The position numbers were made by a program, and so were the translations under genes. A stretch of DNA of 64,000 bases from an uncultured Marinobacter sp. (GTDB lineage: Bacteria; Pseudomonadota; Gammaproteobacteria; Pseudomonadales; Oleiphilaceae), in contig NZ_CAMYMK010000002.1 in the NCBI RefSeq assembly GCF_947259545.1, positions 62,001 to 126,000 on the forward strand. The letters are read 5' to 3'. Numbering within the stretch: position 1 is the first letter of the stretch; each line of letters opens with the position of its first letter. Shown here piece after piece: positions 8,722 to 10,928 of this stretch. Under the pieces are notes generated by a model, which worked only from the letters and a program-made list of their open reading frames with translations, was not told the DNA's origin and made no database searches.

Positions 8722-9543
8722 TCAGAACATCTCTACCCGAACCTCAACGGTCTGATTTTCCCTCTGGTCGCCGCCAACCTGATAGGTGATGCCGGAGCGG
8801 TTGCTGGTCTGCCTGCTTCGGGTGCTGCCAAGCTCGATCCATTGCCCGGGTTCCACCCGGCGAATGGTCATCAGAGCCTCGGTTTCATAGCCGGGTATAT
8901 CGTCCGCCGGGTCTTCCTCGAAGGAGACGATATTGAGCTCAATGGTTCGGTCGGAAATAACCTGCGGGCTGACCAGAAAGCCGCTGCGTGTCTCTATCTG
9001 TCCGAGGATGGCAGCGGGGTTACGCCCACCTCGAATGGCGATCGGGACTGTTCGCACCTGTCCGGAATGGATATGGGCTGACTGACCGTCCTGAACCACC
9101 AGGGTGCGCTCCTGATTGCGGCGAGTCGTCGTGACTCTGCGTTCAACGTTGGCACTGGCCTGGCCGTTGCTGATGGTGATATTGCCACCTCCGCTTTTGG
9201 CGTCCAGGTTGCTGCGGGTCCGCACGGTGATCCGCATCTGTACCGGGGCGACGTCCATGGTTTGCACCAGAGATCCAATTTCGTCCAACACCTCTGGCTC
9301 TCCGCGTACGATCATCTGCTGTCCCCTGGTGGTAATGGCAACCTGGCCATCGGGGTACAGCTCCCTGACTTGCGCGCCAACCTGTTCAGAGGAGCGGTTG
9401 TTGAGCTGGTAGGTACGGGCCTCTGGTGCTGCCAGTGCGGACAGGGGCATGACGAACAGGAACATCCAGAGGGCGATGATTGCTGACCCGTTCCGGGAGA
9501 CAGTCTGGTTGGTTTGTATCGCAGTCACGGCAAAAGATTCCAT
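8722..9543 (-). CDS. Exported secretin-N-domain-like protein, orphan
   Basis: About 273 residues from ATG at 9543; an upstream in-frame ATG at 9600 would add 19 unlikely residues. It has a signal segment (SAIIALWMFLFVMPLSALA, cleaved before APEAR). The mature part opens with RTYQLNNRSSEQVGAQVRELYPDGQVAITTRGQQMIVRGEPEVLDEIGSLVQTMD, which follows the N1/N3 short domain of type II/III secretins, including the 'repeat then MD' ending. After it comes a Gln/Arg/Thr-rich region and a beta-rich C-terminus with no secretin pore. It therefore looks like an isolated secretin-type periplasmic protein. No secretion genes are nearby. Function unknown. Confidence 0.7.
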   Translation of the reverse strand: MESFAVTAIQTNQTVSRNGSAIIALWMFLFVMPLSALAAPEARTYQLNNRSSEQVGAQVRELYPDGQVAITTRGQQMIVRGEPEVLDEIGSLVQTMDVAPVQMRITVRTRSNLDAKSGGGNITISNGQASANVERRVTTTRRNQERTLVVQDGQSAHIHSGQVRTVPIAIRGGRNPAAILGQIETRSGFLVSPQVISDRTIELNIVSFEEDPADDIPGYETEALMTIRRVEPGQWIELGSTRSRQTSNRSGITYQVGGDQRENQTVEVRVEMF

Positions 9544-9589
9544 CAAATTCGGGATTGCGGGTTGCAAAGCCGAAAACCGGAGGTATATA

Positions 9590-9736
9590 TTGAAAAGCAT
9601 GAAGACTACACACGCGACCTGTCAATTGAATGTTCTGAAAGCTTTCGGTGCGAAACCGGCAGCTGCGGTCGCTGCTGTGTTTTTCTGGTGGTTTGGTTAT
9701 GGCTTTTATTTTAGCCAGAGCCAGGGCCGCCCATAA
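9590..9736 (+). CDS. Aromatic-rich leader peptide upstream of DAHP synthase
   Basis: A short ORF ending with TAA at 9734-9736. GGAGGT at 9579-9584 is five bases from an in-frame TTG at 9590 (48 residues); ATG at 9599 (45 residues) is the alternative start. Codons at 9680-9712 read FFWWFGYGFYF: nine aromatic residues out of eleven, covering Phe, Trp and Tyr, the three end products of the pathway. This composition, followed by alternative hairpins and a terminator before an aromatic-biosynthesis gene, is the hallmark of an attenuation leader. The peptide itself probably has no function; its translation would sense charged tRNA-Phe, tRNA-Trp and tRNA-Tyr. Confidence 0.85.
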   Translation: MKSMKTTHATCQLNVLKAFGAKPAAAVAAVFFWWFGYGFYFSQSQGRP

Positions 9737-9836
9737 GATCTTCATCGACTGAATTACGAGGAAGGCAGCCCGGCAAAACCCAGGCTGCCACCGGACTCGA
9801 AAAAGCCCCGACTGGTAGCCCAGCCGGGGCTTTTTT
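9720..9836 (+). promoter_or_regulatory. Predicted transcription attenuator for DAHP synthase
   Basis: Hand pairing gives alternative structures. Segment 1 (9720-9727, GCCAGGGC, at the end of the leader ORF) can pair with segment 2 (9768-9774, GCCCGGC). Segment 2 (9764-9770, GGCAGCC) can instead pair with segment 3 (9783-9789, GGCTGCC). Segment 3 (9783-9790) can pair with 9813-9820 inside the terminator stem, with one G-U. A ribosome stalled in the aromatic codons leaves segment 1 free, so 1:2 forms, 3 blocks the terminator, and transcription continues. A ribosome at the stop codon covers segment 1, so 2:3 forms and the terminator folds. The logic fits feedback control, but no folding energies were computed. 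Confidence 0.65.
9803..9836 (+). terminator. Intrinsic terminator between leader peptide and DAHP synthase
   Basis: GCCCCG at 9805-9810 pairs with CGGGGC at 9825-9830; CTGG at 9812-9815 pairs with CCAG at 9820-9823 across one A/C mismatch, with loop TAGC. Six T residues follow at 9831-9836. It lies 31 bases before the DAHP synthase ATG, so it would stop transcription before the gene unless prevented. Confidence 0.85.
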
Positions 9837-9866
9837 GATTCTGACACAGGGAAACGGACAACTGAC

Positions 9867-10928
9867 ATGAACATGCCACTGAATATCGACACCCTGACTG
9901 ACGGGGCCAGCGCCGGGAATTCCACCGCCCCCAATCGCAGGGAAGAGATTCTTCCGACAGCGTCAGAGCTGAGGACCCGCCTGCCACTGGCACCTGCCGT
10001 GGAGCACCAGATCCTGCGCCAACGTGATGATATCCGCCGGGTACTTAACGGTGACGACCCGCGCACGCTGATTGTGATCGGGCCGTGCTCGATTCACGAT
10101 GAGGTGGCCGCGCTGGAGTACGCAGACAAGCTTAAGGAACTCGCAGCGTCTGTCAGCGACCGTTTCCTGATCGTGATGCGTGCCTACCTGGAAAAACCCA
10201 GAACCACCGTGGGCTGGAAAGGACTGTTGTACGATCCGGACCGTACCGGAGCCGGTAACCTCAACGACGGTCTGGTGCGGTCCCGCCGGCTGCTGTTGAA
10301 CCTGGCGGCAACCGGTCTGCCGCTGGCGACCGAAGCCCTCAGTCCATTCGCCATGGATTACCTTGGTGACCTGATCAGCTGGAGCGCTATTGGCGCCCGC
10401 ACCACGGAATCCCAGGTGCACCGGGAACTGGTCAGCGGTCTGCCGATGCCGGTGGGCTTCAAGAACGGCACGGATGGGGGCGTGACGGTGGCGATCAATG
10501 CGATGAAATCCGCTGCCCACCCGCACCACCACATGGGCATTGCCAGCACGGGCGCCCCGGCCATGATCACCACCGAGGGCAACCCGGATACCCATCTGGT
10601 CCTTCGGGGCGGACGAGGCATTACCAACTACGATGCCGACAGCATTGGCCAGGCCATTGAGTCACTGTCAGACGCTGGAGTGTCCACTGCCGTCATGGTG
10701 GACTGCAGTCACGATAATGCCTGCAAGCAGGCAGATCGTCAGCTGGATATTGCCCGGGAGGTCGTGGCCCAGCGAGCCGCCGGCAACAACTGCATTCGGG
10801 GCCTGATGCTGGAGAGCTTCCTGGAGCAGGGCCGCCAGAATGACGGCGCCGATCTCATATACGGTTGCTCCATTACCGACCCGTGTATTGGCTGGGCCCA
10901 GACGGAGGCTCTGATCCGCTCACTGTAG
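9867..10928 (+). CDS. 3-deoxy-7-phosphoheptulonate (DAHP) synthase, type I
   Basis: A 353-residue AroF/AroG/AroH-type enzyme. It condenses phosphoenolpyruvate and erythrose 4-phosphate in the first committed step of the shikimate pathway to Phe, Tyr and Trp. Visible marks: VIGPCSIHD (about 73-81), MRAYLEKPRTTVGWKG, GARTTESQVHRELVSGLPMPVGFKNGTDG, and VDCSHDNACK with the metal-binding His. Length and sequence match the family fully. Which isozyme it is, and whether Phe, Tyr or Trp inhibits it, cannot be read safely. A leader peptide and terminator upstream suggest attenuation, whereas E. coli uses the TyrR and TrpR repressors. Its 3' end overlaps the convergent LysE gene by 56 bases. Confidence 0.95.
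   Translation: MNMPLNIDTLTDGASAGNSTAPNRREEILPTASELRTRLPLAPAVEHQILRQRDDIRRVLNGDDPRTLIVIGPCSIHDEVAALEYADKLKELAASVSDRFLIVMRAYLEKPRTTVGWKGLLYDPDRTGAGNLNDGLVRSRRLLLNLAATGLPLATEALSPFAMDYLGDLISWSAIGARTTESQVHRELVSGLPMPVGFKNGTDGGVTVAINAMKSAAHPHHHMGIASTGAPAMITTEGNPDTHLVLRGGRGITNYDADSIGQAIESLSDAGVSTAVMVDCSHDNACKQADRQLDIAREVVAQRAAGNNCIRGLMLESFLEQGRQNDGADLIYGCSITDPCIGWAQTEALIRSL

Follow-up and report, generated by a model that had tools for sequence, protein, structure and literature searches.

Transcription attenuation is already known, as is a leader with codons for two aromatic residues in front of a DAHP synthase gene, according to the abstracts and excerpts available to us. In E. coli, the leaders of pheA (pheL) and trp (trpL) carry codons for the product of the pathway and act by attenuation (PMC4046766, PMC11802643, excerpts). 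The closest multi-amino-acid leader in these excerpts is aroR of Corynebacterium glutamicum, which places Phe-Tyr-Phe before the DAHP synthase operon (aroF) and on which the ribosome stalls under Phe limitation (PMC4046766, PMC11802643). Among gammaproteobacteria, the available passages of one paper place predicted attenuators from the Merino database upstream of Vibrio aroAI-alpha-Y > tyrA (PMC1173090). In the titles, abstracts, and passages we searched, no description of such a leader in Marinobacter or Pseudomonas was found.

Here, we analyze the leader of a DAHP synthase gene in an uncultured Marinobacter sp., located in a 64,000-nucleotide stretch of DNA that we refer to as a whole as the window. 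Very probably, this leader is a ribosome-mediated transcription attenuator, through which DAHP synthase expression would depend on charged tRNA-Phe, tRNA-Trp, and tRNA-Tyr.

The window belongs to an assembly of 4.08 Mb, and its features are listed in Table 1. The product of the gene downstream of the leader matches DAHP_synth_1 with 254 bits and scores over the cut-off of the NCBIfam aroFGH equivalog, in agreement with a preliminary description of this DNA. The ORF of 45 to 48 residues reported there, with FFWWFGYGFYF at 9680-9712 and a stop at 9736, was recovered with 45 residues and these same coordinates, and the strong terminator that it placed at 9803-9836 lies within the computed hairpin. 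Pathway-product codons in a short upstream ORF and an intrinsic terminator between leader and gene, 30 nt before the start of the latter, are both characteristic of attenuators. A further characteristic, an exclusive antiterminator chosen by ribosome position, was found by folding. Of 54 loci, 51 have the divergent secretin-like gene beside the leader; it was not found in L040, L042, and L044.

Table 1. Features of the leader region and its adjoining genes in the window
Feature	Position	Strand	Details
Divergent neighbor with Secretin_N domain, outside the switch	8722-9540	-	33.8 bits, cut-off 28.2
-35-like TTGCAA of leader promoter	9562-9567	+	9 of 12 consensus matches together with the -10
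-10-like TATATT	9586-9591	+	Ends 7 nt 5' of leader ATG
Possible divergent promoter over leader ORF start	9596-9625	-	TTGACA 9625-9620, CATGCT 9601-9596, spacer 18
Leader peptide ORF, 45 aa	9599-9736	+	MKTTHATCQLNVLKAFGAKPAAAVAAVFFWWFGYGFYFSQSQGRP; ATG 9599, TAA 9734-9736
Regulatory codons FFWWFGYGFYF	9680-9712	+	5 Phe, 2 Trp, 2 Tyr
Segment 0, on aromatic codons	9687-9704	+	Predicted to pair with A if ribosome absent
Segment A, in last leader codons	9713-9731	+	Partner 0 or (9720-9731) B
Segment B	9760-9774	+	Partner A (by 9764-9774) or C
Segment C	9780-9794	+	Partner B (anti-antiterminator) or, by 9783-9794, D (antiterminator)
Intrinsic terminator	9797-9838	+	D 9797-9815, E 9820-9838; core 9803-9832, U-tract 9831-9836
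DAHP synthase, type I, AroFGH family, 353 aa	9867-10928	+	Domain and equivalog matches

The leader peptide is present in 59 of 61 Marinobacter genomes (E <= 0.01) and, by profile search, in 134 of 163 genomes of the family, a few of these matches being partial. More distant families of the same order also carry it. An order-wide profile search matched 51 of 390 genomes at E <= 0.05, and its weaker matches (from about 0.003, several within long frames) were left out of the leader count. A DNA pattern of the aromatic codons gave 56 matches in a collection of named genomes, all of them in Marinobacter. The preliminary description had named loss of the aromatic codons or helices in related species as evidence against its reading; instead, Phe, Trp, and Tyr all occur within a 14-codon cluster in 103 of 103 collected leaders, with 6 to 10 aromatic codons each, the distant leaders having been chosen by aromatic density without requiring all three amino acids. 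Forty-two of 66 leaders have exactly 45 codons; all 42 of these keep one of the two Trp codons, and 41 keep the other. Gly-35, Phe-36, and Tyr-37 are kept in all 42, with the third base identical in 40 to 42, a constancy that is expected if RNA pairing also constrains the codons. Our counts exclude L043, a weak match with an internal stop, and L110, which has no TTTT-tailed terminator under the rule used. Another two leaders, L105 and L113, escaped the aromatic-density rule but were picked up by R1 (a model built from 28 sequences, none Pseudomonas-type) and then read in the sequence. Neither entered a simulation, and L113 has just four aromatic codons (Y, Y, W, F) close to the leader end.

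A consensus scan of positions 9400 to 9960 identified the pair at 9562-9591 as the sole promoter-like site, which the preliminary description had missed. Both of its elements recur among the leaders: TTGC[ACT]A lies at most 50 nt upstream of ATG in 62 of 66, and a TATAAT-like hexamer (at least 4 of 6 matches) is present in all 66, ending 7 nt from ATG in 62. No Shine-Dalgarno-like motif was found in 65 of the 66 leaders, and most Pseudomonas-type leaders show a GGAG-like motif. The distance of the -10 from ATG suggests that transcription probably begins at or beside the ATG, and the leader ORF in the window thus looks probably leaderless. Excerpts from the literature provide precedents in the trpL transcript of Sinorhizobium meliloti, which starts at the leader ATG (PMC7298713), and in leaders of Streptomyces lividans (PMC8079986). 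Unlike the window leader, trpL is a Trp leader that serves trpE(G) in an alphaproteobacterium, and the window would offer a gammaproteobacterial example of a leaderless leader ORF that can be tested directly. On the opposite strand, the TTGACA/CATGCT pair may serve the divergent secretin-like gene as a promoter and, as such, could explain the near-fixed DNA of leader codons CQLNV. TGTCAA occurs within the first 60 nt of the leader ORF in 61 of 66 leaders, and the consensus scan of 9400-9960 did not recover this minus-strand pair.

Folding of the window revealed five alternating helices, of which 0:A, B:C, and D:E are mutually compatible and exclude A:B and C:D. In ViennaRNA, A:B joins 9720-9727 to 9768-9774 and 9729-9731 to 9764-9766, B:C includes 9764-9770 with 9783-9789, and C:D includes 9783-9790 with 9813-9820. 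The antiterminator draws on 9808-9820 of the terminator. Three exclusive helices paired by hand in the preliminary description are identical to those from ViennaRNA, to which the computation added the 9729-9731 pairing and 0:A. The regions 9590-9840 (z = -5.0) and 9750-9840 (z = -6.9) were both more stable than dinucleotide shuffles, with 0 of 200 equally stable in each case, and a terminator hairpin with TTTT is present in 102 of 103 leaders.

We evaluated the conservation of these helices in an alignment of 28 diverse sequences (A2), in which counts refer to sequences and not to independent events. The termination structure is paired in 89.2% of the alignment cells, with 11 pairs changed on both sides and 31 cells of both-side change compared to 11.6 in shuffles. 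C:D is paired in 94.8% of cells, compared to 3.6 to 44.4% for slid partners, and 0:A is paired in 83.5% of cells across 28 aligned sequences, with 5 of its 16 pairs changed on both sides. In 4 to 5 of the 28 sequences, one B-C-D triple has changed as a whole, C-G-C being replaced by U-A-U. The covariation of A:B in A2 does not exceed that of column shuffles (81.8% versus 80.9%, score 0.121 versus 0.128). Since segments A to D vary strongly between families, we ran a swap test across six taxonomic groups, in which the pairing of own segments was equaled by 3 (A:B), 15 (B:C), and 1 (C:D) of 2,000 derangements, and some exchanged segments paired as well as or better than their own. This test supports the co-evolution of the three competing helices between families, being the sole support in the case of A:B. 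With RNAalifold, 13 Pseudomonas-type sequences gave an A:C helix in place of B:C, which counts against the scheme.

We simulated ribosome positions with a mask of 13 nt downstream of the A-site codon and with a transcript extending as far as the terminator loop. With the ribosome on codons 9683 to 9707 of the window, A:B and C:D appeared in the codons folded, before E is made; they were not obtained when it occupied the Phe codon at either end of the cluster (9680 or 9710). When the ribosome stood at the stop codon, or when there was none, B:C formed and then the terminator. The same order of events had been proposed in the preliminary description, along with masked folding as its check. Across the leaders, we scored a switch when B:C was lost on stalling and restored at the stop codon with a difference over 0.5, and 81 of the 102 leaders with a terminator qualified. 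Removal of near-duplicates reduced the 102 leaders to 47 representatives, of which 34 switch, compared to 26 of 564 controls in which the intervening region was shuffled, and this number varies from 32 to 39 when the footprint is set between 9 and 17 nt. Readthrough on stalling and termination at the stop codon, as originally proposed, thus agree with the folds of the window and of these 34, but among Pseudomonas-type representatives only 1 of 8 switches at the later 3' end, with 7 of 8 doing so at an earlier one. Seven of the 13 representatives that do not switch are Pseudomonas-type, and in these C:D already rivals B:C at equilibrium. Making RNA available only to the start of D, the earlier 3' end, weakens the contrast over all representatives (20 of 47 versus 88 of 564 shuffles). 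All seven diverse loci that were folded singly with a mid-cluster stall formed A:B and C:D. Our initial and cruder measure, the expected pairs of D with everything upstream, gained at least 4 pairs in 16 of 102 leaders; it was replaced because D pairs nonspecifically with other segments, and its result counts against the reading.

The enterobacterial his attenuator has six alternating segments and also terminates without translation. The corresponding topology, in which 0:A, B:C, and D:E exclude A:B and C:D and termination occurs without translation, is seen in the window. When B:C must also return with no ribosome present, in addition to the switch, 15 of 47 representatives qualify compared to 5 of 564 shuffles, which makes the 0:A step uncertain outside Marinobacter. 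From the computed ORF, codons, and helices, with their exclusivity, conservation, and co-evolution, we infer the start site, translation, stalling, and effect on the gene as follows. RNA polymerase would initiate at about 9599, and a ribosome would translate the leader ORF from a message that is probably leaderless. When Phe, Trp, or Tyr is scarce, the ribosome would pause at 9683-9707 and cover segment 0, leaving A free to form A:B and C free to form C:D; the D:E hairpin would then come too late, and transcription would continue into the DAHP synthase gene. When all three amino acids are ample, the ribosome would reach the stop codon and cover A, so that B:C and then D:E would form and transcription would end at about 9836. 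In the absence of translation, 0:A would again leave B:C and D:E to form. The same alternating chain operates in his-type attenuators.

To assess how the leader is distributed relative to the enzyme, we surveyed DAHP synthases across the order in a sample of 194 genomes. All 26 DAHP synthases of at least 372 bits are preceded by an aromatic leader, eight of them from Marinobacter and its family and eighteen from others. The 17 regions before lower-scoring DAHP synthases (L002, L115-L130) comprise two with a leader, L117 and L121, two doubtful cases, L126 and L127, and 13 without a convincing leader; the second DAHP synthase of the window's genome (L002) has no leader by the rule applied. The two doubtful regions match R1 with about 30 bits without a convincing aromatic run and are possibly diverged versions. 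Across the class, R1 matched 17 of 274 genomes (loci L195-L214), and a scan of these loci for short aromatic-rich frames found a convincing leader with helices, besides the window (L195), only in L205, from genome G095 within the order, and in L201, from genome G703 outside it. In L201, the leader is P15-like and ends in MYFYGYWFSRYGV, with similar repeats and a terminator after it.

A second aromatic-rich ORF lies between the terminator and the DAHP synthase start in 11 of 17 distant loci examined (L098, L099, L100, L101, L103, L104, L110, L111, L112, L114, and L121). One example contains MNTTYYRYYRNSDWRFSS; YYRN..WRFS is recurrent, and the ORF often follows a GAGGA-like motif. In L110 and L121, a few bases separate the stop of this second ORF from the probable ATG of DAHP synthase, a spacing suggestive of translational coupling. 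The 30 nt before DAHP synthase in the window leave no room for such an ORF.

Pseudomonas-type leaders match the Rfam family P15 (RF00627), with 70.6 to 125.6 bits in L098, L099, L103, L106, L111, and L112. RF00627 matches at E <= 0.01 occur in 24 of 244 genomes, 11 of which reach the cut-off. In all 18 genomes examined for both, the P15 match is found upstream of the orthologous DAHP synthase at a distance of no more than about 0.5 kb, with 10 of these matches over the Rfam cut-off. The window resembles these loci in its position before the same enzyme, in its aromatic ORF (P15-type endings include FGYWFS..RA), and in the order of its three hairpins ending in a terminator, since the P15 consensus structure in Rfam consists of 0:A, B:C, and D:E. 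It differs from P15-type leaders, which in most cases carry a GGAG-like ribosome site and in many cases also another aromatic ORF. R1 finds the P15 loci over their full length at 24 to 47.5 bits, a range of which only the upper part is telling because wrong-strand matches, mostly of the terminator alone, reach 23 bits. At the gathering score, Rfam has no match in the window: RF00627 reaches 20.5 bits where gathering requires 70, with the terminator alone giving 16.3 on the other strand, and the amino acid leader families (Trp, His, and similar) are not among the window's matches. We thus regard the window leader and P15 as equivalent and probably homologous elements that do not belong to the same Rfam family.

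RF00627 is entered in Rfam as the Pseudomonas sRNA P15, which has reportedly been seen on Northern blots. The excerpts available to us list P15 among the RNAs detected by Livny et al. (PMC2375449), and the literature examined, in the parts seen, nowhere reads it as an attenuator. Its catalogued role raises the alternative of a trans-acting small RNA that ends by chance just before the DAHP synthase gene. We consider this very improbable given the 18 of 18 genomes with P15 just upstream of the same enzyme, the conserved ORF with its aromatic codons, and the conserved antiterminator that is incompatible with the terminator. An attenuated leader may act in trans as well, as excerpts on rnTrpL of S. 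meliloti indicate (PMC7298713). In an attenuator reading, the P15 sRNA would be the prematurely terminated leader in Pseudomonas-type genomes.

Another possibility is that the nascent leader peptide arrests the ribosome on a free aromatic amino acid, as in TnaC, instead of codons being slowed by empty tRNA. The peptide is well conserved over its entire length in Marinobacter, and the pattern G-Y-G/YWFS-Q/R recurs across families. However, Phe, Tyr, and Trp interchange at some positions between leaders, and the Gly and the GR(P) tail fall on bases paired in 0:A and A:B. The logic would also be reversed, as arrest in excess should give readthrough in this geometry, and we attach very little weight to this explanation. 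Control could instead lie mainly with a TyrR/PhhR-like protein at the promoter, with the leader minor or a relic. The window's genome encodes one TyrR-like HTH_50 match over the cut-off, in a 502-aa frame (G000:C2:1043255-1043401, L194), which could supply extra promoter control. No TrpR match was found in this genome, and a maintained chain of helices is unexpected for a relic, making it highly unlikely that a protein is the main regulator. Attenuation by the translating ribosome remains our preferred reading.

A broader proposal, to which we give about even chances, is that a single ancient attenuator family spanning at least six families of one order uses one leader to sense all three aromatic aminoacyl-tRNAs where a branched pathway makes its first committed step, a task divided among three enzymes in E. 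coli, with P15 as its terminated product and the second aromatic ORF adding a translation-coupled sensing layer in Pseudomonas-type genomes. If the attenuator reading holds, it would assign a function to P15, an RNA family catalogued as an sRNA, and explain how entry into the shikimate pathway is tuned in Marinobacter and its Pseudomonas-type relatives. It would also provide a natural combined Phe/Tyr/Trp sensor for metabolic engineering.

Compared to described systems, the window shares with Vibrio aroAI-alpha-Y > tyrA an attenuator-like structure before a gammaproteobacterial DAHP synthase (PMC1173090, excerpts), although the Vibrio case is a structure prediction alone and the word "leader" is absent from the text of that paper. 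The enterobacterial his attenuator differs in its histidine codons, and the window has no his-leader match in Rfam. The preliminary description had set three-amino-acid sensing apart from pheL and trpL, and this distinction stands in that pheL and trpL respond to one amino acid each and precede different enzymes. It is narrowed by the existence of other multi-amino-acid leaders, such as aroR-aroF in the excerpts available. That leader combines Phe and Tyr, but it belongs to an actinobacterium, the excerpts name no Trp codon in it, and the response they report is to Phe limitation. Within the literature searched, what seems new is one leader for all three aromatic amino acids, together with its breadth and layout and the identity of P15.
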